The notes under the pieces: generated by a model
What the model saw: only the letters and a program-made list of their open reading frames with translations
Told to the model about the DNA's origin: nothing
The model's database searches: none
Shown here: positions 8,729-43,197 of the stretch, one piece after another
Position numbering within the stretch: the first letter of the stretch is position 1
Layout of the letters: each line of letters starts with the position of its first letter
From: Tetraselmis striata
Lineage: Eukaryota > Chlorophyta > Chlorodendrophyceae > Chlorodendrales > Chlorodendraceae
DNA length: 64,000 nucleotides
Direction: 5' to 3'
Assembly (NCBI GenBank): GCA_006384855.1
Contig: VCJN01000308.1
Coordinates: forward strand, 434,001-498,000
Position numbers and translations under genes: made by a program

Positions 8729-11553
<2,825 letters not shown>

Positions 11554-20583: not shown

Positions 20584-21500
20584 CTAAAAACATGAAAGAT
20601 CAACACAAGCCTCATAAAAGCGGCCGCGGCATCCCGCACGAGGCGGGATGGATGAGTGACGTGCGCCATGTAGAGAGTCCGAGCCACGCGGGCACATGAT
20701 GCGTTGTGCAGCTTCGGCAACGGGATGGCGGGCGAATATGAGCCGTCTGATGAGGCAGCGAGCACGCTCTCGTCGAGCCGCCACCAAGCTTAGTTGCCCG
20801 AGATAATCTCTTGCGAGTAAGGCGTCTTGGTGAGCCCAGGTGGTGCACCGAGTGCCTCGCGATGAGAGCGCACCCCGATCCGCGGCCAAGCATGCGATAG
20901 CTCGCACCCTGTGGCGCACCCCCTTGCTCACCTCACCCAAAGTGCAGAAGACCATGCCCGTGTATATTCCGACATGTCTAGGATGTCTCGAAGTGGGCCC
21001 TTGTGTCCCGGCTCCGTGTTATGCCACGCCGCATCCCGCATTGTCACCCCCCGTTGCATGTCACCCAACAGGGAGTGCTCATATTGATCCACATCCGTGG
21101 CTCGGGGCACCACAGTGTAATTGACATTCCATCGCACTAACTCATGTAGCGTGGGTTTCAAGCTCCGGGAAACATAGCTCCCCGTCACGACGTTGACGGC
21201 CTAGAGGGAGAGCTCCGCCTCCGGCACCACGTCATTGAGTTCATCCATGGGTACGGTGTTGCCGAGAGGCACTGCGTGCCGAAACAAGTCATCCACCTTG
21301 CGGCGAATAGCTATGCCCATATCATGAACATAGTGATCGCAAAAGGCGTCAGCGATAGTATCGTCGGTGTTTGTACGCGCCAGTGAGCGTCTCCAAGTGC
21401 CGGCAGGTTCATTATATAGCGCGTCGCCATGGAGGTCGACAGTGACGGGGTTGTGCTCTGTCGAGGGTAGAGTGATTTGGCTCCAAACCACCGGGGCCAA
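20584..21500 (-). CDS. possible coding fragments, unidentified
   Basis: Two consecutive minus-strand frames, 21500-21201 and 21188-20928, look protein-like (RTNTDDTIADAFCDHYVHD; HELVRWNVNYTVVPRATDVD) and are followed by a weaker one (20955-20584). They stop next to the left end of the 12-kb inverted-repeat element. They could be the remains of a gene or of a retroelement into which that element inserted. No family is recognised. Confidence 0.3.
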
Positions 21501-21524
21501 TCAGCATGGGCTCAGCAGTAAGGA

Positions 21525-21558
21525 GTACAACAGTAATGCAACCTATTTTGCCCCGAGG
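21525..21558 (+). repeat. left terminal inverted repeat of the 12-kb element
   Basis: Starts GTACAACAGTAATGCAACC and matches the reverse complement of 33717-33750 at 30 of 34 positions. Just inside, GGGACAAAT (21681-21689) and GGGACAAAA (21760-21768) repeat a word found in the element's internal arrays. Confidence 0.85.
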
Positions 21559-21798
21559 CACGCGGTGCATTGTGGTTAGGTCTAAATTAGGGTTTGGGGG
21601 CAGCAGTGGGATTGCAAGCTAATATGAATGCCGGTTGGTTCATTTTGTGCCAAGTCGGGGAAACCAATTCCGTCCAAGCAGGGACAAATCAAAAGAGTGA
21701 AGGAAACGGGATGGTTACAAGTAGTTTGCGCCGTCGGGGGCTGAAACTCTGTCAAAGCCGGGACAAAACATATGAGCGGCTAATTTTGCGGAATTGTA

Positions 21799-24700
21799 CT
21801 ACGTATCATCATCTTCGATCACATAATCCCCTCGGCGCTCTGCCGCCTCTTGCCTCCTCTTCTCCGCCGCTACACGCTCTAACTGCTCCTCAAACTCGGT
21901 CATTGGATGGGGTAGACCCGGCCACTTCTCGAAGTCAGTTGGACGCAGTTGTTGAGTCTCGTCCCATGGCTTCTCTTTGAACCATGAGGTCATCCTGGAC
22001 TTCATCCCAGCGATTTGCGTCTTCTGGTTGTCAATGAGGATAATCTTCAAGTTCCTGTGTGTGAACGAGTAGGTATGATCCATATGGTCCCACCACACGG
22101 AAAAGGCCGCAGCGACCTGGAAAAGGCGTGGCAAACCGCACAACGCGTTAATTTTTTTTGTTGATCCCATTAAGACACTCACCCGGGTTGCACCCCTCAC
22201 GCACCGCGGTTGTCCCGGTTCCGGCTGTGACGTCGACGATTGTTGTCCCGTCTGTTGCCGCCATCTTAAGGTGCTTGGCGAAGAGAGCGATAGGCTTTTG
22301 GTACTTGTTCACCGTCTGTCTGTTCTCGTCCTTCAATTTCGAATTGTCTTTGAAGTGGCCCAATATGATGGATGTAGAGAACCTGGAAAGGCACAACCGG
22401 CTTAGCGAGTAAATAAATACAAGCCGGCTATTTTCCACGGATCAAATCTCACCTTCGGGGATCATCGAAACGGATGTTGTCAGCTATGATGCTTGGCGGG
22501 GGCTTCCTGACGTAGAGGTAGTACTCAGCGTCGTGACGCAGAGAGCTGCCCATCTTCATCCCGCAATCCTTGGCCCAAGTCAGGACGTGATAGATGAGGT
22601 CCTCAGCTTGTTTTTGAACGGTTGTGATTGCGGATCCAAGTTGCTGGTCCGAGAGGTGAATGAAGAAATGGCACCCATAGAGAGCAGTGTGGACGTCAGA
22701 AGATCCAGTCAGGATATTGAACTGCCTGCGCGGGGGAAAAATCGGGAATGAGATAAATGAAAGCACAGTCATCTACGCACCGGGGTTGTGGGGGTTGTCT
22801 TGCCTGGCGAAAGCAAACACGTCGTTGAAGTCGTCCGTGCCCCACGCAGCATCCTTCGAGTCCCATGTGTGCGAACCAGCTCCGGCAATGAACACTGTTG
22901 CCTTTCTGGCACGAATTGCCGACATGGCGTCCGCGACGAATTGTTTTGTCGCGGGAGCCTTAAAGTTCCCCTCCACAATGCAAGTCTTGCAAAGCTCCGT
23001 GTTCAACCACACCTTCTCATCCTTGTCGACCCCTTCTCTCTTGGGCATCACCGGAAGTTCCTCGGCCTGTGCGTATTAGAAAACAGATTTGGGTTAATGG
23101 CTCACAACGAAAATTCAGAAGAGCATTTGTGGTCGCACAAGATCTTAGTTACCTTCATCGATATCCACAGCTCATTAGAAACATTCGGAGCGGAAACCGC
23201 GATAAGCTCCGGCGCACATGCGAGAAGAGCAAACTCTATGAAGAAGGAGATGACCAAGTCCGGCATCTGATTCTTGATGCGATACGCCTCACTCTTGATG
23301 GTGGTGTTGGTGGCCGCGATATGCTCTCGAACCGGTAGTGGTGTGAGACAATCGGCGGATTTCATGTCCCCCCATCTGGCAGGAGGGGTCAGCAAGACCA
23401 TCAAAGGACCGGAGCGATGAGCACCTTTGAACAAATCCTGGAACTTTCTGGGGAAGCCTGTTGGGCCGAGGTCATCAACCTTGGCTCGGAACTTTGATGG
23501 CGTCAAGGCGAGCGGCCGCTTGGTCATCCGACACTTTGTCTTGCACATCCCAATCGATGATGTGGTCCGAGAGATATTTCCCCCAATTCCTGGCCGGTTC
23601 GTCCGGCGTCAGCAGTTGGATTGTCTCCCTGCCCTTTGCCGTGCCAATAGCATTCATGAGCTTGATGCTTGCTCGACGCAAGAGATCGCGAAACCTCCAG
23701 GTCTCAATCATCGCGAGCCACTCCGCGTTGGTGTGCGTGACAGCCATGGGGCCATCGTCGCCGGCATGCTTAATGTCATCCACCAGCTCGTAGAGGCTCG
23801 GGGTCACACTGTGCTCGCCTTGGATGAGCAGTCCAACCACCAGGTACATCTGGCCCACAGGGAGATCCGCGCTGTCGCTCTGCTTGGCAAGAGACGGCTC
23901 GTCTAGCCAGGGCGCATGGGGTCCAAAGCCAACATCCTGGGTCGAAAAACAAACTTCAGTACGGAGAAAGACATGTTAGTATTCCATGTGATTAAGACAC
24001 TGGGGTCGGTCACAACTTACCTCCATGAGTGCGACTCGGAAGTGAGCTCTGTCTTTGCCGAAGCCGTACTTCTTATTATCGAGGATTGCATTGATAGGCT
24101 TCCGAATTGCTTCGTAAACTTGCTCACTTCCTTCTGGGTGAGTTGCCTGCCGGAATTGAGGCGCTTGACTCTATCGAGTTCTTGCTTGTAGTACACAAAC
24201 AGGTCTCCGAGTTTGGTTATGGCTTCGTCCCATCCTCGAACCCCGAGGTCCACATGCCGGTAGGCTTCAGAAATCTGCTCAAGGGGCTCAAAAACACTGC
24301 GCAAATCATTTGTCAGAATCTAGCAGCATTAACAACACGATAAATTTTCATCATGTACGCAGCTCACCGTTGTGGGCGCGAACAGAGGTCAATCAAATTT
24401 GAGAACTCGCTGCTCTTCTCATCTTTGATGCCGATCTTCTCAAGTTCAACTTGAAGAACTTCAGACTTCTTGAACTCCTTCACTACCCTGATTTGCGGGA
24501 GTGCCCTAAAGCCGGGGCGATTTGCATCCTGTTCTGCATACCAGCTCTCGAAACATCTGCGAAGGTTCTGCAGAAACAATTGCACCGATTTCCAAATTCC
24601 GAACGATTTTACCTCGATGACAAACCGTTTCGTCCCGCTGATGACAGACCGTTTCGTCCCGCTGATGACAGACCGTTTCGTCCCACTGATGACAGACCGT

Positions 24701-27700
24701 TTCGTCCCACTGATGACAGACCGTTTCGTCCCGCTGATGACAAACCGTTTCGTCCCACTGATGATAGACCGTTTCGTCCCACTGATGACATACCGTTTCG
24801 TCCCGCTGATGACAAAACGTTTCGTCCCGCTGATGACAGACCGTTTCGTCCCACTGATGACAAACCGTTTCGTCCCACTGATGACAAACCGTTTTGTCCC
24901 ATTGATGACAGAACGTTTCGTCCCACTGATGACAAACCGTTTCGTCCCACTGATGACAAACCGTTTCGTCCCGCTGATGACAGACCGTTTCGTCCCACTG
25001 TGACATATGTTTAACCCGCTAACGAAGAACGACTTTTGTCACACTTTACGCCTATTTGCTGCCACGGTCAGCTTAATTATAATTTGGGAGAATGGGGCAC
25101 TCACCAGGAGTTTGTGCATCGACGTGTCTCCCACGACGGTGTGACCCGCCTCGTTGAGCTTCATAGACATGTAGCGGCAGACTTCCGGCGAGAGGCCGAT
25201 GTACATCTTAGCCGACGTGAGGTGGATGCCTTTGTTGGCTTTGTAGATTTCCGGGTAGTTTTCTTTCACCATGCGCTTCGCCTCCCGTCTGTGGCTGCCG
25301 TCGATGTTGGCTTGACGCGCATTGTAGTACCTAAGAAAATCGATGATGACGTCGATCTCTGGCTTGTAGGAACTTGAATCCGCCAACCTCGGGTTCTCCC
25401 CGCCTTCGTGTGCTGCGACTAGCTCCTTGAAGTTGGCCATGGTCTGAGCGAGGGGCTCGAACTCATCGGAGAAAAATCTTTCTTAGGGACTACAGGAAAG
25501 GACACCGAGAAATTCTCGGCGGACAGGGAAGGATTCCTCTGAATAACAAATGCAAGAAATGGATGTCAGTAAGTTGCATTGTGTATTGATTACCGGATAG
25601 GTACAACAGGTCGCGATAGGCTTTTACCTTGTAGCTTTGCGCCACCATATTGCAGTCTTGCAGCTTTGGGGAACGGAATTCAAATTCCGGCGGCGGAGCG
25701 ACGAACTTATCGGATATGAAGCTGAAAATGTGAGGCAGCCCCGTATCCTTGTCGACGAGGAGGTTGACTGTCGGCGTATAGCGTGTTGATGTCGCCACCG
25801 TGAGATGTCTTCACCTCTGGATCAGCAATCTCGACTCTGAGGTGGCCGTAAGAGATCCAGTCGACGGCACCGGTGTTGTGGAAGCCATTCAAGGCCGGCG
25901 GGACGGCCAACGTGTTGACGTATGGAAGCGCGTTCTTAAAATCCTTGTCAATGTTGGCCAAGTCATTGATGTAAATCTGACCAGACGCGAAACCTGTCAG
26001 CGCCTGAGCCAGCACATTGCGCTCGACCAAAGTCCATTCGTAGTAAGACTGGAACCGCGGCTGGAAGGAGAGTGGCGGTTGGATCGCGTGGAGTAGCAAC
26101 CTCTCAAAGCTGACATCGATCCTGAACTCCTTGTGCACTGTCAAGCGATAAGGTTCAAGGGAGATCTGCGGTAACAAGCATAAGAATATTAATACTTATT
26201 GAAACACGACATTGACACGAATTCAGACATCATGTAAGCTTTACTCACCTCGTAGTTTCCGGCCGAGTCCAGCTCGACGTCCTTGATCTTTCCGATACAC
26301 GCGAGAAGTGGCCCCTCCGGATCATCGAAAAAGTCCTTGCCAGTCAACAGGCTCGCCTTGTGCAATTCGATGTACAAATAGATCTCTACCTCAGCACTTG
26401 CGTTCTTGAACCAGTGGATAGTCCAGCTCCTTGAGGTAAAGTCGCTGTAGGAGTCATCTTCTTGGGACCCGTCCCTCTCGTCAAAGAAGTCGTCGTAAGA
26501 GGCGACCGTCATCAGCTTTGTCTTCCTCTCGGGTCCAGGAGTGTCGGTGATGTCGAGAGCTTGCTTACGCTTCTCTGCCGCCCGTTGCCTCTGTTCTTCC
26601 TCTGTGCCGAAGACCTCTTCATCCGTGCACATACTGAGGAATTCAGGAACCCTTCTCGGAGCCTCGGCAATAGGGGCTCGAGAACCAGAGGCTCCAGAAC
26701 CAGACGCTTGCCCGGTAGTCGGCGCTGGAGTCTCGAGCTCGGCCTCTGGCTCCGGGTCAAGCCGAGTGGGCTCGGGCTCCGGCTCGGGCTCCGGCTCCAT
26801 CTGAGTGGGCTCTGTTTCAGGCTCCGGCTCGGGCTCCGGCTCCGGCTCAGTGTGCTCTATTTCAGGCTCAGGCTCTGTTTCCGGTACTTGAGATGGGCCT
26901 TTAGACAAAGAAGAGCCTTGATTCGGGGAACCTGTAAAGAATGAGTAGAGAGTACTCAACACACCTCCAGTGGGCGTCACGATTAACTACTGAACGGTAT
27001 CGCCATACACCATCAAAGCCAAGCGTAATTTTTCTTACCTGGGGATCCCGATTTACCAGCTGCTTCCGACGCGGTTGCCTGCGCCAATTTACGACCTGTT
27101 GGAACGTCAGATAACTCATTGACGAGAAAGTAATCGAAGGGAGTGAGAAGGCAGGGATTGATACTTTCAGTCACAATTACCTGGAGTCACAATCGTCTCT
27201 GAAACCTTTTCTTTTCCCTTGGATTCCTTTGAAGCTTGAGTCGCTACTGGCTCATGTGCGCGTCCTTTCGAACCTGTCAACACACATGATTTCAAACAAT
27301 GTAAATATGACACAGTGCACTCACAAAGGCAGGGATTGATACTTTCAGTCACGATTACCTGGAGTCACAATCATCTCTGAAACCTTTTCTTTCCCCTTGG
27401 ATTCCTTTGAAGCTTTAGTCGGTACTGGCTCATGTGCGCGTCCTTTCGAACCTGTCAACACACATGATTTCAACCAATGTCAATATGATACAGTGCACTC
27501 ACAAAAATCATATGATTGGAGAGGCAAGGACCTGATTGATAGTAAGCTTGCATGAGTTTTTCGTAATCGATTAGCCTTCGCGCTGTCTGCATTTGAGCAT
27601 CTGAGAGGACTTGGCCGCTCTTGATTCGGGCCGTCAAAAGAGCGGCGGCCGATCTTTCTCCTTGCGAGTGCGTGCCGTAAATCGGCACTCTACCTCCTAA

Positions 27701-29018
27701 AAGGCTCGGTTTCCAGGGGTTACCTGATGCCTCAGCGCCGGCTCTAGCTTCAGAAGCTGAGGCTGCACGGCTCTTCTTCGCAGCCGGCTGCTCGGGCACG
27801 GAAGATGACGCCTTGTGTTTTCTCCCGACTAGCGCTCCGAGCGCATCGAATTCTTTTGCTTTCTCGGTAGGTTTTGGTGTCCGCTTGGACCTTCGACCTA
27901 TAAATATCATATCATGTCAGAGCGTTTCGTCCCACTGATGACAGACCGTTTCGTCCCACTGATGACAAACCGTTTCGTCCCACTGATGACAAACCGTTTC
28001 GTCCCACTGATGACAGACCGTTTCGTCCCGCTGATGACAAACCGTTTCGTCCCACTGATGACAGACCGTTTCGTCCAACTGATGACAGACCGTTTCGTCC
28101 CACTGATGACAGAACGTTTCGTCCCGCTGATGACAGAACGTTTCGTCCCACTGACGACAGACCGTTTCGTCCCGCTGATGACAGACCGTTTCGTCCCACT
28201 GATGACAGACCGTTTCGTCCCGCTGATGACAAACCGTTTCGTCCCGCTGATGACAGACCGTTTCGTCCCACTGATGACAGACCGTTTCGTCCCACTGATG
28301 ACAAACCGTTTCGTCCCACTGATGACATACCGTTTCGTCCCACTGATGACAAACCGTTTTGTCCCACTGATGACAGACCGTTTCGTCCCACTGATGACAG
28401 AGCGTTTCGTCCCACTGATGACAGACCGTTTCGTCCCACTGATGACATAACGTTTCGTCCCACTGATGACAAACCGTTTCGTCCCACTGATGACAAACCG
28501 TTTCGTCCCACTGATGACAAACCGTTTTGTCCCAGTGATGACAAACCGTTTCGTCCCACTGATGACAGACCGTTTTGTCCCACTGATGACAAAACTATTT
28601 TCAAAACATTATGTACTGCGGTTTAATAATGTAATGTCTGTAAGTACTGCGCTTCAAACCACTCCTTACGGCGGAGTACAGGCAGAGGTTCCCCCTGGCC
28701 GCTCTTCACCCCCACCCCCTCCCACCACCAATTAGCATCCTTACTGCTTGCCGCAGCTGCCTCGACGGGACGTAATACTACCCTGCAGGACCCTGATGCC
28801 GCTCGTCTCGTTTGGGTTTCTATTCCCACTCGTCTGCCTACACCTCGAGCGGTCCTAGATTACACCGCTTCTACAGGGAACCCTAACTGAACTCGCTAGA
28901 TCTGGCCGTATCACGCGTCCAGCAGGCAGACAGCTACTGTACGCGCGCGCAACTCACCTGGGGTGGCGTCGTCCTTGTCTTCCTTGTCCTTGGCAGGCTC
29001 GTTCTTCTTCGGCGCCAT
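21799..29018 (-). CDS. large element-encoded protein: basic N-terminus, acidic PE repeat, C-terminal DNA-methyltransferase-like domain
   Basis: The start is the ATG at 29018 (MAPKKNEPAKDKEDKDD; exon 1 29018-28958, donor GTGAGT). Exon 2 begins at 27897 in the right phase and adds basic, NLS-like sequence (KSRAASASEARAGAEASG). Two near-identical small exons follow (27.47-27.35 and 27.29-27.18 kb), then a Glu/Pro repeat (26.89-26.70 kb). A long globular middle runs 26.7-22.8 kb. The C-terminal 280 residues hold HVLTWAKDCGMKMG, EYYLYVRKPP, QKPIALFAKHL and VDVTAGTGTTAVAAAF (joined over the intron at about 22.2-22.1 kb), then IILIDNQ and the stop TAA/TGA at 21799-21801. The order 'W.K, hE..L..RK, KP..L, VLDPFAGSGTTxxA, G.D..' is that of beta-class DNA N6-adenine/N4-cytosine methyltransferases. 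The expected catalytic (D/N/S)PPY is not visible where it should lie. Exon borders in the middle are tentative. Confidence 0.6.
24610..25000. repeat. 24-bp tandem repeat array 1 (about 16 units), inside an intron
   Basis: The unit begins CCGTTTCGTCCCACTGATGA and adds four variable bases; units differ mostly at CAC/CGC and CAGA/CAAA. The array lies in the minus-strand gene's intron, between the GTGAGT donor near 25095 and the exon that ends near 24367. Repeat length is a multiple of three and five of six frames stay open through it, which creates long spurious frames such as repeats of MTDRFVPL. Confidence 0.95.
26690..26900 (-). repeat. Glu/Pro coding repeat in the element's minus-strand gene
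   Basis: GGCTC/CGGCTC codon repeats encode alternating Glu and Pro on the minus strand (EPEPEPEPEPE), an acidic, probably disordered linker. Length variation between copies would be expected. Confidence 0.85.
27150..27505 (-). repeat. 178-bp tandem duplication of an exon with its intron
   Basis: 27150-27327 and 27328-27505 are about 95% identical and each carries one exon plus flanking splice sites. Both exons encode SKGRAHEPV(A/P)T(Q/K)ASKESKGKEK and end in CCAG|GTAAT, phase 1 to phase 1, so the duplication keeps the frame and doubles a Lys/Glu-rich segment. Confidence 0.9.
27912..28600. repeat. 24-bp tandem repeat array 2 (about 28 units), inside intron 1 of the minus-strand gene
   Basis: Same unit and same genomic orientation as arrays 1 and 3. 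It sits between exon 1 (donor at 28957) and exon 2 (acceptor at 27898), so it would be removed by splicing. Units are highly uniform, indicating recent homogenisation. Confidence 0.95.
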
Positions 29019-29564
29019 TCTGGCGGTAGGTAGGTTGACGCGGTAGATGAGCGGGTTTCTTGGTGGGAAGCGGTGAGGGAGAGGTGGAAATGACGTGGTT
29101 TCTGTCTGCCGCCGCTCTGACCCCTGCTGGACCAACGGCGCGCGTGCGCACACTATAGTGTACCTCGTCGTCGTCATCAGGTTCATGTATTTTGCACCGC
29201 GACGAATATTCAAGGCTAACTACTGCGACTATATATTACTATTACTGGAAGATAAAATATTCCCTACTCGAGAGTCATAACGGTACGAGAGTACAGTGGC
29301 GTGCCAATAATATTCCTTCATGGGATGATATATTCCTTGGATAGGATTCGGGTGTTCTTACTAGTATAGAACTATTTCCGACATACGAAAGAAACATGAA
29401 ATAGCACGGTATTTGAGTCATCAATAATTTTGACCCGTAGCTGGATATTATGCCCCCCGGTCAACGGCCCGTCCGAGAACGGTCATCGGCTGTCACTCTT
29501 CCTCACCACAGATCACAGTCCTTCAACCCCCCCCCCCCCCCCACACCCACTCGCCCCGCGCTGC
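29019..29564. promoter_or_regulatory. divergent promoter interval of the 12-kb element (inferred)
   Basis: The two element genes start back to back at 29018 (minus) and 29565 (plus). The interval is AT-rich in its middle (29170-29430) and has a C run at 29528-29542 just before the plus-strand ATG. No specific promoter motif is identified. Confidence 0.5.
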
Positions 29565-32500
29565 ATGGCGGCGGTCGAAAGCATGGCCTCTTCTCCAGGA
29601 TCCGGCGCGTCGGACACTACAGTTACATTACCGCTGTGTTCGTGCCGCAGCGGGTACTCGTGTGATTGCGACGCGCGTGCGAGTGATCGTAAGGAGCATG
29701 AGAAAAGGAAGTACACGTGGGGCAAGGGCGATGAGGTCGCCGAAAGCGATAATGGCAAGGTCTCGTCTCTGATCAGCAAGCGCACCTCTCGCGATTGTAT
29801 CCGCCTCATGCTCGCCAAGGAGGCTAGCGAGCAGTCGCCATGCTGTTCGCGCAAGTGCGTGCACAAGCTATACACACAGTGCGGAGAGGCCCTCGTTGAT
29901 GCCGTGTTGGACCGTGCGTTGACCGTGTACTCTGGCAATCAGAACCGCTCCTTTGACCGGCTCGCTCAGGTTCTCAGGGGTGGCTACGAGTCGGCATCCG
30001 ACAAGTTCGATTACATGTTCAATCACGGTGGCTACTTGCGATCTTTCGATCATCGCGGCCCCATCTACACGTGTGGGCGTGCGTGGGAGGTCTTGCATCT
30101 GGTCTCGAAACACAGACGTCTCGTGATCCAGCGGTCGGTGGTGGATAACGAACCCACGTACATCAGGCAGCGCAAGCAATACGAGAGCAGACAAACGGGA
30201 CCGAGGGAGCATGTGCGCATGTTTCTCGAGCACTTCTTCTCGGATGACCTCGGTCACGTCGAGATCATGCCTTTTCATGACGGAAACAGCGAGACCTTCA
30301 AGAAGCACCTACCTCCCTGGATGACCAAGATTTGCGTCTACTACTACTACAAGTCGTGGGCCGAGGACGACAACGCCATTCTCCGTGGTGAGGCCCATTT
30401 TGTCCCACTGATGACATACCGTTTCGTCCCGCTGATGACAGACCGTTTCGTCCCGCTGATGACAAACCGTTTCGTCCCACTGAGGACAAACCGTTTTGTC
30501 CCGCTGATGACAGACCGTTTTGTCCCACTGATGACAGACCGTTTCGTCCCGCTATTTACACACCGTCTTTGTCCCGCTGATGACAAACCGTTTCGTCCCA
30601 CTGATGACAGACCGTTTCGTCCCACTGATGACAAACCGTTTCGTCCCACTGATGACGAACCGTTTCGTCCCACTGATGACAAACCGTTTCGTCCCACTGA
30701 TGACAGACCGTTTCGTCCCACTGATGACAAACCGTTTCATCCCGCCGATGACATACCGTTTTGTCCCGCTGATGACAAACCGTTTCGTCCCACTGATGAC
30801 AAACCGTTTCGTCCCGCTATCGCCAGAACGATTAGTCCCACCGACGCCGGACCGATTTCGTCCCACTGACGACAAAACGTTTCGCACCGCTCATGGCATA
30901 CCGTTTCGTCCCACCGACCACAAAAGTATTTGTCCCACATAATTAGCCGATATCGACCCACTGCAGAGAGAACGTCTTGTCCCGCTGCTGAGAGACGGTT
31001 TTGTCCCACTACTGACATACCGTTTCGTCACACTGATGACAGATTGTTTCGCCATGCTGATTACAGAATTATTCACCCACTACCGATATAATTATTTCGA
31101 CCACTTTAGACCGAACTTTTCTGTCTCGCATTATGAGACCATATTTGTATACCGACCTATTATGCCCCTGCCCCTTTGTAGATTTGGCTACCGAGAGCGA
31201 AGTGAAGCTCGCATCGTTCGACACTTTCCGCCGGACTTGGAAGGAAGACTTCCCGGATGTCACCACTCCGAAGGTGAAGCGATTCAGCCACTGTCCCATA
31301 TGCGCGGCGGGCAAAGCACTCAGAGACCAAGCTCGCGAGATTTGCACAAAGGACATGACGCCAGAGGAACGTCAAGTGCACCGTCAACATCAGCAGCTGG
31401 TGAGGCGTAAGGTCAGAGCTGAGCAGAAGGTACACCTCGAGAGAGTGCGCCAGGAACGAAGGGATCTGAACAACGCCGTCTTCCAGTCGCGCCTTGGCCA
31501 TGGAAACTTCTTCTTCTTCGAAATTGATAGCATGGACTCCGCGAAGACCCTGCTGCCTCACTGGGTTCGCATCCCCAAGACTGTGAAGCCCGACATGCTC
31601 CTCAAGTACCACCTCACCTGTGTGAAGTACGACGGATACCGCCCGGACGACATCTACTACTACACCAACACCATCCCCCACGATTCGTCCACGACGTGCA
31701 CTCTGATATGGATCACGATCATGAAGGTGAGCTCGTTAGCCTCCCGATAGGATCGCCGTGGTTGTCCGGTAGCCATGGACTGATGAAATCTGGTCTGCGA
31801 TGCAGGAAATTCAACACCGTGGTAGAAAGATTCCGTACATCAGAATCCAGATGGACAACACCGTCAGGGAGAACAAGAATAGGAACGTGGCGGCCCTCTG
31901 CAATTGGCTTGTGTCTATCGGCATCTGCGACGTCATTCATTTGGTCTTCTTGCCTGTCGGGCACACTCACGAACGGGTTGACCAAATCTTCAGCCGCATC
32001 AGTCTTGCGCTATCTCGCAGCTCCGCCTACACAATCGAGGCCATTCTTGACTTGGTGGCGAAGGCATTCTCGCCCACTCCGGAGATTGCTGAGCTCTCAT
32101 TCTCCCTCGACTTCTCTGAGTGGTTAAGGCCCCATTTCCAAGACCACATTCAGGACATCAGTAAGCCGCACAAATTCGAGTTCACCCGTGACGACGCCGC
32201 CGCGTCTGGCGGCTCGTTGCGCACCGCCTTGTGGTCCAACACACCGCTTTCTGAGCCCGTGCAGATCTTGAAGAGCGCGCCAACTGGGACGCCCGAGATT
32301 CGTGCGGGCCGGCCCCTTTTGTACGCTCTCTGCGACAAAAAGAAGCCCGACGCGGTGAAGGTCCAGAGGTACTTGGATGATTTCAAGAAGGTCAGGTCGT
32401 ACATCACGGACCTGGCGGTCCAGTGGCACTTCTCCCCAGTCGAGCGCGAGAGCTGGAAGCATCTGCTCGACGACTTGGATGAGATGCAAACTGCTCCTTC

Positions 32501-33453
32501 GGCAGCTTTCTCCGGGTTCTGGCCGCAACGGAAAGAGGAAGTTGACGACTTCTTGCGCGAGCACGGGCAGACCGCGCCTGCTAGGGCACGTCACACGATG
32601 GCTACCAACGCAGACCTCAACAATGCCGAAGCCGCTCGCGTTGAAGCCGAGGTTCGTGCTCAAGTGCTTCAAGATGACAGCGCCTTCCGGGGAGTTCACG
32701 CCGGCGCCAAGGAGAGGCTTCATGACAACACATCGCCCAGCGATGCAAAGGGCTCGAACCTCGTTGTCATCGACGTCTCCGATGTGAGTCCCATTGTTTG
32801 TCATTTTTGTCCTTTACGGGACAAAACAATTTTGTTCTTCTACCTTGCTTGTTATTTTGTCCCAGCTGGGACAAAAATGTCGTGGCGTCTCGCTCGGGAC
32901 TAACATAGCTCGCGGTATTGGTCATCGTTAGGTGCATGAGGAAGACAAGTGTCCTGAAACTCTTGGTGATTGGGAGTCGAGATTCGTCATCGGGCTTGTG
33001 AAGTCGCGCGAGACTACCGAAGACACGTTGACCGTGGCCGTATACGAGCCCTTCCATGCCGATGCAAAGGGCAAACCCCTCATGCCCCTATGGTTGTACG
33101 CGCAGACAAAAGGAGGGAAGAAGCCAGTTGACACAAGCTGGGAGAAGTGCCTGACGCTTCCTTGGAAGCTTGTTGAAGCCGTCCCCCTATCGTACGCGAA
33201 GGCCATCCACGACGCGTCGGGAAGTCGAGAGGTGTTCAACGAGGACGGCACCATGGTCAGAAAGAAGTGGTACGGTAAAAGCGTCCAAGTCGTGAAGACA
33301 TATGCGCAAACTGGGTGGCAAATCAGCCAGCCACGAAACAACTGCGTCCACGTCATGTCAACCACCCCAGCGCAACGCAAACCCGGCGGAGTCGTCAAGT
33401 TTAACGCAGCCAAGAAGAAGGACTTGCTTGAGTTGGGGATGCTCAACGAATAA
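29565..33453 (+). CDS. DUF7869-like RNase-H-fold protein, candidate transposase of the 12-kb element
   Basis: Four exons, 29565-30387, 31182-31726, 31806-32783 and 32932-33453, join with correct phases to an unbroken 955-residue protein. The N-terminus has Cys clusters (LCSCRSGYSCDC, CCSRKCVHK). Exon 2 has CPICAAGKALRDQ and FFFFEIDSMDSAKTLLPHW. Exon 3 has IQMDNTVRENKNRNV and FLPVGHTHERVDQIFSRIS. The set (I)D, QxDNxxxENKN and GHTHxxxD is that of the DUF7869-type proteins that occur as multicopy families in algae and oomycetes. The spacing suits an RNase-H fold, with acidic residues in the first strand, at DN and at the D after GHTH. Intron 1 (30388-31181) holds array 3 and intron 3 (32784-32931) holds a palindrome. 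Function as transposase is inference from fold, multicopy habit and position inside terminal inverted repeats. The ATG at 29565 is the first in frame; MASSPGSG at 29583 is an alternative start. Confidence 0.85.
30393..31060. repeat. 24-bp tandem repeat array 3 (about 27 units, degenerate at its right end)
   Basis: Same repeat as arrays 1 and 2, lying wholly within intron 1 of the plus-strand gene (donor 30388, acceptor 31181). Units right of about 30820 are increasingly diverged, as expected of the old edge of an array homogenised by unequal exchange. Confidence 0.93.
32805..32876. repeat. paired inverted repeats on the TTTTGTCCC word, in intron 3 of the transposase-like gene
   Basis: 32805-32826 pairs TTTTGTCC with GGACAAAA across a short loop. 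32855-32876 is a 22-bp perfect palindrome centred on GTCCCAGCTGGGAC. The arms are the same word found in the 24-bp arrays and near both element ends. Confidence 0.85.
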
Positions 33454-33529
33454 ACTATCAGCAACGTCTTTTGGCTAGCTAGCCGCGGGATGTAATAATC
33501 ATAATAAATATTGATTTCATTGCCTCATC

Positions 33530-33549
33530 TTGTCCCATTTTGGACAAAA
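33530..33549. repeat. TTGTCCC...GGACAAAA inverted repeat near the right end of the element
   Basis: About 170 bp inside the right terminal repeat and 80 bp past the stop of the transposase-like gene. It mirrors the GGGACAAA words at 21681 and 21760 near the left end. Confidence 0.7.
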
Positions 33550-33716
33550 TGCTCCAAAACCAACATTGGATATGCGTCGCGGCTGGCCTTCATGCTGTTG
33601 AATGCTGCACTGCACCCAAGGTCTACAAACCCAAGCTACATCACCAGTGAGTCTTAAGTACTGATAGTAAACCCGGGAACTAGGGTATAAACAAACCCTA
33701 CGGTGCAAAATGAATT

Positions 33717-33750
33717 CCACGGCGCAAAATAGGTTAAATTACTGTTGTAC
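33717..33750 (-). repeat. right terminal inverted repeat of the 12-kb element
   Basis: Its reverse complement starts GTACAACAGTAATTTAACC; partner of 21525-21558. Confidence 0.85.
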
Positions 33751-35650
33751 CCCGCACTAACGACCTCCCGTACCTTCTGCGGAGTCACGACCGTCCGTGG
33801 GGATGGCCACAATCCACATGCCCGACGAGGCGTAGAGCTTGCCGCGCAAGATCCATGCACGCCGACGGCCTCATGCGCACCACCGACCCCGTGCCGCCAC
33901 AACTACCTTCCCCAAGACTCGAACGACTCGTAAAATAGAGTTGACGCCCACAGCTGGCGTGCCGCGCCTCCCACATGTAACCCCAAAAATAGGCGAGGAT
34001 CTCGGCTTGCATGTCGCGGCTGGCCCATCACGCGCACGCGCGGGTGCCCTAGCAGGGTGCGGGAGAGGTCTGGCAATCACACCATGTCGAGACCGTTGGG
34101 TTGTCAACATGCGGTTTGAGTCGCGATGTAAAAAAATTGCGTTTGGGTCATGTAGTTCGACGGGATCGACGAGTTGAATCTAACTCATGGTACACGTGTA
34201 CAATTGCCTCCGATGTACGGTGTATAAATGTATAAGAAGGCCGCATCGTCCTCGCGAACGGAAGTTCGCGGTGAATGATGGCCCGTAGGTAGATTGTATT
34301 TTAACACCAAGGTCGTAGGTAGATTGCTCCGCTATAACGGGAATCTATTAGTCGGCAGTATATATGTATACTCTCGCACAATGTTTAGCCCTACGAATCT
34401 GCATGTGGACGCATTTTTGCGCACTATCATATAGCCAAAACATGTATAGTCATTTACTTATGCCGAAGCTTAGCTTCCATAACCTTGTTTGCAGCGCACC
34501 CTCCGAAACCTCGCGCTGATGCATTAGTTTCTGTAGTGATCTTTTGTCCGCTCACATTGAAAAATGCCGCTTTTCTATAGAAAATCGCACCATTGCGATT
34601 TTCTGTAATGCGATTGCACGTGTTTCAGCTTCATGGGGCTATGCATGCCCCCAAGCTTTTACAAATATGATAGTAAATGAATAAATTGTGGGAGTGTCGT
34701 GTCATTTGGGGGATGACGTGGCGTCGCAACCGTGGACGCGCCACTACCCCTACCGGTTTGACAATGCTCGAAAGGGCCTACAATTGCAGTCCATTGGTAG
34801 CGTATCACGCGACGCGCTATATGGTCCAAGCTTTACCATGTATTAGATAGCCCATATCAAAGCCCTTCCGATGAGCTACTGCCACGACGCAGCGCGGGAG
34901 GTGTTGGAGGAAGGATAGGCGTTGTGCCAAAGCACCGATTACTGCGAAATCACAGAAACTTCTACACATGGCTAGCAAAGAAATGTCTGCTGATTTGGGG
35001 AACCGCTATAATGAAAAGTTGTTTGTTTACTTGAGACCTATAGTGGGCTAGAGTCTGAGGCTCTACTATGGGTTGCACGCACCGAGGTGCCCGTTATGGG
35101 GCCTAACATGATGCATGGGGCTCGCAGATCCCCTAGAAGTTAGCAAATGGCAATTCTGAGTGCGAAAGTACGGGCACTACAAGTCCCCCGACTTATATGA
35201 AAGCGCTTTTGCCATGCGCTTTCCAACACGACCTCGTACGCCTCAATCCGACACCGTTTCACGGATGTGCCTCTTGACACACCTCCCAAAACCGCAATTG
35301 CAACAGTTTTTTCCAACACTGATGGCGCTCGGATTCATGTACCCTCTCGCGCGTAGAGACTAATTTTTACTCAATGAAAAACATGGAGTGGTCGCATGAC
35401 ACCACCATGTCGGCGAATTTGGAAGAAAATCGCACCTATATACTTGCCGAAACCATTACTTATATGCTCCGGGGAATCGCTTACAATACAAAAAATGGGG
35501 CACTATTGCGGCCGTTCTACCACTACTTCATCACACACTTCATCCGACCGTGCCAAAATAACCGACATTTTCCAATTCAAGACGACGCGCTCAGTAGCTA
35601 TTGAGTGCACTTTTTGTTGGTTGAATGGCGTCCAATCATGTTGCAATATA
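33751..35650. other. non-coding, old repeats; no gene recognised
   Basis: 33.76-34.15 kb has short minus-strand frames (RQALRLVGHVDCGHPHGR) that may be retroelement remains. 34.2-35.65 kb is AT-richer and shares short words with 36.4-36.7 kb (for example ATGGGGCAC followed by TGCGGCCGT at 35498 and 36660), suggesting diverged copies of a dispersed repeat. Confidence 0.4.
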
Positions 35651-35948: not shown

Positions 35949-36072
35949 GGGGGGGGGGGGGGGTGCGTGTGTGCGTGTGCGTGTGCGTGTGCGTGTGCGT
36001 GTGCGTGTGCGTGTGCGTGTGCGTGTGCGTGTGCGTGTGCGTGTGCGTGTGCGTGTGCGTGTGCGTGTGCGT

Positions 36073-36155
<83 letters not shown>
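35949..36155. repeat. microsatellite: G run, (GTGTGC)n, then (GT)n
   Basis: A run of 15 G is followed by about 20 GTGTGC units and about 35 GT units, closing with another short G run. It borders the SINE and the direct repeat at 36168. Confidence 0.98.
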
Positions 36156-40609: not shown

Positions 40610-41919
40610 GGAATGATTCAAGAGAAAAGGCGGTTCTTTTCTCATTTAAAGAGAGAAAACAAGTGGTGGAGGGAAATGAAAACGAGAAATTCAAAGTGCC
40701 GAAAGCGTTGCCATAGCCGTTGTTGCCGCCGACTCCGCGGCCTTGTGGAAAGGTTATTATGGCACAAACGTGTTGGTATGTACTCGTCCCGGGATGCCGT
40801 CTTGTTCGCGTCCGTGAGGTAGAGGTCCGCCTCGTCGCGCCGGGGCTTGAAAAGGCTGGGGCGTCGCACGCCCAAAGGGGGGAGGATGTCGTGGTAAGCG
40901 CGGGGTAGGTCATCTACCCAATCGCGGCGGGGTCGATGAATTCGCCGTAGTCGTCGCCATCGTCTTCGTCCGTCGCAGCTGTTGCCCGGGCGTCGTGCAC
41001 CGGGTCGTTACTACCCTTATCCTCGTCGTCGTTGGTCACGGGATTGGCACGTTGCTAGTTGATATCCTCCTATATTTCTAGCCGGGTCACTCGATAGCTA
41101 GGCTGTCGAACTGCATTTCAAGTAACGCTCGCGGAATCGAAAGCTTTACTTGCCTCCGCGGTCGTTTGCTGCATCACCGGCTCCCTTGTCTTCTCAGATG
41201 ATCTCTCCGCCCGCCTTCATACCGCCCGCCATCGTAGAAGGTGTAGGGAGTGGATGAGTCGGTCGGTACCGTACACTCGCGAGGAGTCACACCGTGCGCC
41301 CTGACGAGAGAGAGGCGATGCCGTCGCGCAAGCTGTCAAGCTGGCAGAATGTTGACTCCCGTCGCTACTCCGGTGCGTCATACAGCATGGCTGACTGGGG
41401 TTGGCGCATGCGCCGCTGGTCATCGGCGTTGCCTAGACATAGGGGTGTTGCTTGCGGAATACGAAGCGGCGGCGGCGGTGTAATTCAAACCTCCATATTA
41501 CCAATATGACTACAGTATTTACCCACATTTTATTTTCGTGGTGTACGACTATAAAAGGTGTGCGACTGCCGTGCCGAAATCGTTCATTTAAAACAAGGTT
41601 ACCTGTAGTAGCACGTGCTGAGAATAATCGGGCCATATCCGCTTCTCGTGTCGAGTTGGGTACAGGGATAGCTCCTTGCAGCTAGTTCCTGAAGGTTAAA
41701 AGGTTACAGGGATAGGGTCAATAAAACGCAAGGAAAGTACTGTAGGTCGATACCTGGGAAGGAGAAAGCGTAATCAGGTCGCTACCTCGTTGCCTCATCA
41801 TCCCGTCGCCTCGTCGCTGTCAATCGCCGCGCGATATCGGAGAGCACAGTCGGGGTGTCAGTGGGGAGGGGCGGAGTACCAGCACTGCGACTAGCACGCC
41901 ACGCCTGATACGGACGTAC
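40610..41919. other. intergenic, nothing recognised
   Basis: No supported gene. It provides the 5' flank of the exostosin-like gene; the last 300 bases are GC-rich. Confidence 0.45.
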
Positions 41920-43197
41920 ATGGTGAGCGCGATGGTCGGGAAGAGAGCCGAGGAGCGTCGGCCGGCGCTGTCGCAACTGCTGGTGGTGGTGCTGACGCTG
42001 TGGGGTTCAGTCGAAGTTGCGGCGGAGACCGGGCCCGCAGCGACGAGCGCGTGGCAGCGAGCAAGCCCGCCCTCCCAGCCCGACTTGCCACCCAAGTATC
42101 ACCTCTACGACCCGAACAGCCTCACAGCGTACACAAAGTGCCGGCCGCCGACCGATGGCTATCTCAAGCACAACGTGGACGCCTTGTTCGTGGCGCAGCT
42201 GCTTCGGGAGCATGGGAGCGTGCCGCCAGAGGAGGCGGACGTGTTTGTGGTCCCCGCACTGCTGTCACAGGCGGCGCGGGGGCGGTGCGGGAATCACAGG
42301 ACGCTGTACATGGGCCTGCGAGCCTTTCTCGGGGCGAGCCCCTGGTTCCAGCGGAGCAATGGCACGGATCATTTCCTGGTGCGTGGTCACTTTGCCCCTG
42401 GCATGCCTGGACTGCCTGGGCAGATTGTTATTGGCCGGTTCGAAGCCAATCCACACCTGCTGAACACGTGGCCGGGGCACCCAATCATCTCCGTGGGCTA
42501 CAGCACAGCGATGGGGATGAAGACCTTTGTTGCAGCGCAAGCGGGTGCCGACGATGCGCAGCTCGCTGCCCTATCCGCGCGGCGCATCAAGCCATTCCCG
42601 GACCGCACCTACGACTTCAGCTTTGTGGGGCAGGCAGACACGCGCGCCGCCTATCTGCACCGGCGGCAGCTGGGCTGCTCCATGCTGCTGGGACCCGCGG
42701 CCAATACCAGCCGCGGCCTGGTGCATCTCTCCACGAAACACGGGGCCATCAACTGTGGTCGAGCCAACACCGCACTCCTGCCCAGGATTAAAACTGACCT
42801 CGACGTCCTGGCGGACTCCAGGTTTGTCGTGACGCTGACGGGCGACACCCCGACGACAGACCGTCTGTGCAACATGTTTGACACCGTCACAGTGCCGATT
42901 GCACTAGCCAGCAAGCTGCCGGCCATCATGTCCGTCGTGCCTTTCCGGGAAGTCATCCCCTGGCAGGAAATCTTTGCGACTGTGAGCGATGCGGCGTGGA
43001 AGGTGGATGCGGTGCAGAGTGTGCTGGACGTGATTGACTCCCTGACGCCGGCGGAGGTGCAGCGCCGGGAGCATCTTATGATGCAGCACGCGGATGACAT
43101 ATCATTTGCCAGCCCGGCCACCACCAGGGCGCACACCAACCTGATCAACGCGGCGTGGGCCGCAATGCAGCCGCAGCTTGCGAAGAAAGGGCCTTAG
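41920..43197 (+). CDS. exostosin-like glycosyltransferase (GT47 family), secretory pathway
   Basis: Exostosin-family proteins are Golgi/ER type II or secreted glycosyltransferases building wall or glycoprotein glycans; algae have many paralogues. This is an uninterrupted 425-residue frame. It has an N-terminal hydrophobic segment (ALSQLLVVVLTLWGSVEVAA, residues about 16-35) serving as signal or anchor, then YHLYDPNSL and the family landmarks EEADVFVVPALL, RTYDFSFVGQ and DSRFVVTLTGDTPTTDRLCNMF with VPIALASKLP. The last is the typical 'F.L.P.GDt.ts.R..da...GciPV' region, here a little divergent. A single exon of this size stands out among the intron-rich neighbours and may mean retroposition or a young paralogue. 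The ATG at 41920 is the first in frame, with another at 41932. The donor and acceptor sugars are not predictable. Confidence 0.88.
   Translation: MVSAMVGKRAEERRPALSQLLVVVLTLWGSVEVAAETGPAATSAWQRASPPSQPDLPPKYHLYDPNSLTAYTKCRPPTDGYLKHNVDALFVAQLLREHGSVPPEEADVFVVPALLSQAARGRCGNHRTLYMGLRAFLGASPWFQRSNGTDHFLVRGHFAPGMPGLPGQIVIGRFEANPHLLNTWPGHPIISVGYSTAMGMKTFVAAQAGADDAQLAALSARRIKPFPDRTYDFSFVGQADTRAAYLHRRQLGCSMLLGPAANTSRGLVHLSTKHGAINCGRANTALLPRIKTDLDVLADSRFVVTLTGDTPTTDRLCNMFDTVTVPIALASKLPAIMSVVPFREVIPWQEIFATVSDAAWKVDAVQSVLDVIDSLTPAEVQRREHLMMQHADDISFASPATTRAHTNLINAAWAAMQPQLAKKGP

Follow-up and report, generated by a model that had tools for sequence, protein, structure and literature searches.

The window, which refers to the whole stretch of 64,000 bp from Tetraselmis striata analysed here, contained a complete transposon of 12,218 bp (21529..33746), bordered by a 4-bp target duplication GTAC on its left (21525..21528) and right (33747..33750) sides. 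Two divergent genes with introns were recovered in it as spliced models, one on the plus strand with four exons, whose product matched the DUF7869 domain, and another on the minus strand with 15 exons (21799..29018), which was methyltransferase-like at its C-terminus and frameshifted in this copy. Three satellite arrays with a 24-bp unit all lay within introns of these genes. Outside the element, a frame matching exostosin GT47 (41746-43197, plus strand) and a frame matching an AAA ATPase (8806-9708, minus strand) were probably host genes, and a nearly perfect array of the hexamer GTGTGC with about 31 copies was observed at 35969-36153.

Inverted-repeat arms with 83% complementarity (21517-21558 and 33717-33758) were separated by 12.2 kb in the window. 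The true terminal inverted repeat was 30 bp long and started with AACAGTAAT. The left repeat, of GC type (21529..21558, plus strand), was obtained from the inverted-repeat search and the end-pattern listings, and was identical to the right repeat, of TT type (33717..33746, minus strand), at 26/30 positions as counted by eye. The four letters preceding AACAGTAAT differed among copies and, in paired ends, were the reverse complement of each other, which makes them target sequence outside the element. Since the target GTAC in the window is a palindrome, it had been mistaken for four extra bases of the inverted repeat; of the 34-bp terminal repeats claimed in a preliminary description of the locus, the inverted ends 12.2 kb apart were confirmed, while the first four bases belonged to the target duplication. 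A 7-bp imperfect duplication (GCAGTAA/GCACTAA), suspected by eye, was ruled out, because the copies and the empty sites showed 4 bp.

The terminal pattern was searched in the genome (224 Mb, 2,903 contigs) with up to three mismatches, and 324 matches (167 + 157) were revealed, far more than expected by chance, with none for the reversed control. The same ends recurred in many copies with different flanking DNA, and many copies were 93-97% identical over long stretches. Perfect 4-bp duplications were found at the common ends of all 11 paired copies, the window copy and ten others, which were chosen after matching pairs had been seen in the terminal-pattern search; the ten were taken from 19 noted pairs besides the window, and C140, read in part, was not counted. 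In a duplication-blind test the end pattern plus eight flanking bases gave 258 ends (control 0). Among the 100 ends listed, 14 convergent pairs lay no more than 35 kb apart, and ten of them had identical 4-mers, never longer, where chance would give identity in roughly one pair out of 256. C483 and C613, both among the ten, had both flanks in common and could be the haplotype copies of a single insertion; the four pairs without matching 4-mers were C58, C226, C436 and C914. Identical 8-bp flanks on two contigs, observed for C483/C613 (both ends), C363/C643, C381/C408 and C419/C848, were probably due to uncollapsed haplotypes or duplications. The listed ends also revealed a target preference, with G at -6 in 55/100 and C at -5 in 47/100, which is a palindromic GC-N4-GC just outside the duplication. 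The insertion site in the window followed this preference at -6, with G on either side, and not at -5, where C was missing.

Empty sites were provided by the DNA around the element. The joined window flanks matched 38 further places across the junction with about 79-81% identity, when 40 of 1,562 candidates were scored (two of the 40 being the window's own flanks), so the insertion sits within a copy of another repeat family. This dispersed repeat, for which no fewer than 38 other matches of about 80% were counted, occupied 21229-21528 and 33751-34050 of the window, and a Pfam scan of two long frames in one of its copies (L055) gave no match. A single GTAC was present in all eight paralogous empty sites read. 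The target duplication, which had been thought not to be visible, was thus read both from paired copies and from empty sites, and the proposal of a mobile DNA transposon was borne out. Some copies were reduced: C70 had lost most of the second gene and C470 most of both genes. The latter (L044, L045) was a derivative that still had matching ends and the duplication; most of both genes had given way to a repeated insert, about 1.5 kb long and present about three times, and to satellite arrays, retained in both orientations.

The plus-strand gene of the window copy had an intact frame encoding 955 aa in four exons (29565..30387, 31182..31726, 31806..32783 and 32932..33453, with the stop codon at the end of exon 4). 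Its product matched DUF7869 (PF25273), which is named by Pfam as a domain of unknown function, at 149.4 bits against a gathering cut-off of 26, and nothing besides it was found in the Pfam scan with E up to 1. An alignment of relatives showed candidates for a conserved acidic triad, namely D390/D393 in exon 2, and D473 and E512/D515 in exon 3. At the third position D was present in 13/14 and the neighbouring E in 13/14 proteins with a letter there, and in a set of six proteins D was retained and E was not; the triad could be either D-D-D or D-D-E, both candidates being equally conserved in the 14 proteins. A low-confidence model predicted an integrase/mariner-like fold for the core, among the fold matches listed, and a comparison of the sequence profile with solved structures gave two matches (E 1.1 and 1.8), which were taken as chance. 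The frame was free of stops and gaps in 6/10 copies, and the gene was under purifying selection across copies (C470 left out). Near-identical copies have intact transposase frames, and the element is therefore a candidate active element.

Of three deeper protein searches, one gave 68 proteins, with 63 labelled Tetstr1 and five metagenomic at 23-36% identity; another gave 82, all labelled Tetstr1 except P0102; the third gave 68, all Tetstr1 but P0148, a metagenomic protein with 93% identity over 24% of the query. The best 8,000 candidates were scored in each of the latter two. No relative was confirmed in viral contigs, and the prokaryote genomes searched contained one related locus, in a metagenome-assembled genome, which was possibly a eukaryotic contaminant. 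Among the papers searched, none using the name DUF7869 was found. In one public Tetraselmis gene model (P0059) a DUF7869 fragment was fused to phage-integrase SAM-like domains, possibly as a nested element or an annotation fusion.

The second gene comprised 15 exons and encoded 1,555 aa in an intact copy, from which the exons were projected onto the window; the splice sites were chosen by the analyst, and by eye three junctions in the C-terminal part agreed with the public model P0103 while one differed. The C-terminus was encoded by exons 12-15 (21799..23066, minus strand), with the methylase Pfam match falling in exons 13-15 and the segment presumed to be catalytic in exon 12. In the intact relative it matched the N6_N4 DNA methylase family (PF01555) marginally, at 27.8 bits against a gathering cut-off of 26.7, and it also matched phage DNA methyltransferases (1.1e-8) and, weakly, CcrM. 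These matches gave marginal support to the methyltransferase-like character that had been suggested for this protein. The protein contained VDVTAGTGTTAVAA, which we take to be a SAM-binding-type motif. The catalytic motif of N6/N4 DNA methylases is [DNS]PP[YFW]; at the expected position, placed by eye, DALF was found in the relatives covering it, and the window copy was devoid of those four residues. Median pN/pS was 0.42 (range 0.32-0.65) in 36 pairs from nine full-length copies, C470 and C70 being left out. Besides the reference copy, C154 and C54 were without a stop and had indels only in multiples of three. The product was broken in the window copy, since net deletions, not multiples of three, existed in several exons. 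Adjacent public gene numbers, TSEL_021407 for the second gene and TSEL_021408 for the transposase, were consistent with both genes travelling together.

The satellite arrays were situated in intron 8 (24616..25005) and intron 1 (27914..28591) of the second gene and in intron 1 of the transposase gene (30398..31041), all in plus orientation though the two genes are divergent. Similar arrays were seen in other copies, among the rows listed. The satellite core GGGACAAA also occurred outside the arrays at 21681, 21760, 32818 and 32868, the right-hand sites being about 900 bp from the element end, and the core (GTTTYGTCCC or GGGACAAA) was absent from the rest of the window on both strands. It was one candidate for the word that had been said to be shared near both ends. 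One guess is that the satellites could be extra binding sites for the transposase.

A second group of DUF7869 proteins in Tetraselmis, 36-39% identical to the first, was itself multicopy. Its right end, AACATTCGTTCATT..., emerged when four copies were compared, and the left end, AACATTGGTTCAAA..., with 117 genome matches, was located in one copy via a matching 4-mer; the other copy read had no candidate for it. Identical 4-mers, never longer, were present in 21/26 end pairs, a few of which had a flank in common and may not be independent. For the pairing, all of the 72 right ends but one, whose start was mismatched, were taken (71), together with 30 left ends that were chosen by eye, from 100 listed out of 117, as those on contigs with right ends. 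The termini were AACA in this family also, and the targets were GC-N4-GC-like, with C at -5 in 42/71 and G at -6 in 30/71. In the one copy searched for it, of 8,511 bp and with other tandem arrays, nothing recognisable as the second gene was found. On the evidence of this copy, the length of the duplication, the AACA termini and the choice of target thus track DUF7869 and not the second gene, which for the same reason is probably not a general part of DUF7869 elements.

The exact ends, the 4-bp duplication, the empty sites and the recent spread are those of a DNA transposon that was active recently and moved most likely by cut-and-paste, with DUF7869 as transposase and the second protein as a methyltransferase-like or SAM-binding accessory, and a probability of about 0.91 was assigned to this reading. 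The role of DUF7869 as transposase, proposed in the preliminary description, and its placement in the integrase/RNase-H-fold kind (DDD or DDE) were supported because two families with only 36-39% identity agree in the length of the duplication, in AACA termini and in the targets preferred; the Pfam match, the candidate triad and the low-confidence model pointed the same way. The transposase would bind the terminal repeats, cut at AACA/TGTT, and insert the element at GC-N4-GC-like targets by joining reactions staggered by 4 bp, while possible roles of the accessory protein are to modify the DNA of the element, to mask it, or to act against silencing by the host. The ends, duplications, empty sites and two families thus suggest a likely function for DUF7869 from genomic evidence, and if it is true, many DUF7869 'genes' in annotated genomes would probably be transposase copies.

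Other explanations differed in their weight. Some flanks were present twice, suggesting uncollapsed haplotypes or duplications, and might hint that the 12 kb arose by misassembly or segmental duplication and not by transposition; since the copies differ in their flanks and show both 4-bp duplications and empty sites, the last of which already refuted it, this has a negligible chance of being right. It is highly improbable, too, that DUF7869 is a passenger and the larger second protein the real transposase. Both genes are retained in full-length copies and are under purifying selection, as such a role would allow, but one second-family copy lacks a counterpart of the second gene and yet has the same duplication length and termini, and the integrase-type fold of the low-confidence model belongs to DUF7869.

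The relation to Sola carried more weight. The element could be an ordinary member of this superfamily with an acquired passenger gene, and the odds for that are slightly below even. The 4-bp duplication was found in 10/14 pairs of the first family and 21/26 of the second; a DDD triad, which is how Sola transposases are described in PMC10741241, is possible in DUF7869; and Sola2 elements carry passenger (Fanzor) genes according to the relevant part of PMC3627910. Against this, the likeness is one of description, the triad may be DDE and not DDD, and the duplications of Sola2 are AT-rich in the account of PMC3627910, which those here are not. A more speculative and rather doubtful proposal is that DUF7869 forms its own eukaryotic transposase superfamily, marked by AACA termini, a 4-bp duplication, GC-N4-GC targets and a triad spaced as D-x82-D-x41-D or D-x82-D-x38-E. 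In one of its branches a large methyltransferase-like protein would have been acquired, and the altered catalytic segment of that protein would have made it a SAM- or DNA-binding regulator of the element.

For classification, inverted ends, a target duplication of fixed length and empty sites, by which TIR DNA transposons are recognised, were all found. The element was filed outside Ginger, Zisupton and Tc1/mariner because each fails a defining feature. Ginger has a retroviral-type integrase core as a sequence family, and was ruled out since the Pfam scan (E up to 1) gave DUF7869 only. Zisupton (KDZ), with an 8-bp target duplication as stated in the section concerned of PMC12730594, was ruled out by duplications of 4 bp and never longer in either family, and Tc1/mariner, given a TA duplication in PMC10741241, by the 4-bp duplications, the likeness being one of predicted fold only. 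The element had been said to fit no transposon type, and this was not supported, since the pairing of a DDD transposase with a 4-bp duplication has been published for Sola, whose elements reach more than 15 kb as described in that part of PMC10741241. Compared by published description only, the two are alike in the 4-bp duplication, in size and possibly in the DDD triad, and passenger genes are known in Sola as a second gene is found here, whereas Sola2 duplications are AT-rich and the preference here is for GC-N4-GC targets. The element was filed among integrase-fold DNA transposons as one working like Sola, compared with it by description and not counted as a member.

It is also a further case of a DNA transposon with a DNA-modification-type enzyme, and whether such genes help elements to evade silencing becomes testable. 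The algal-virus mariners Mariner-2_PGv and Mariner-1_OLpv, which encode a methyltransferase according to their description in PMC3627910, are likewise integrase-fold transposons with a DNA-methyltransferase-like gene, but differ in the TA duplication, another transposase family and an added endonuclease. Fungal DNA transposons carrying TET/JBP, as reported in the passage on them in PMC12730594, likewise have a DNA-modification enzyme as a recurrent accessory gene, though it is a dioxygenase instead of a methyltransferase, and they belong to other superfamilies with other duplication lengths.
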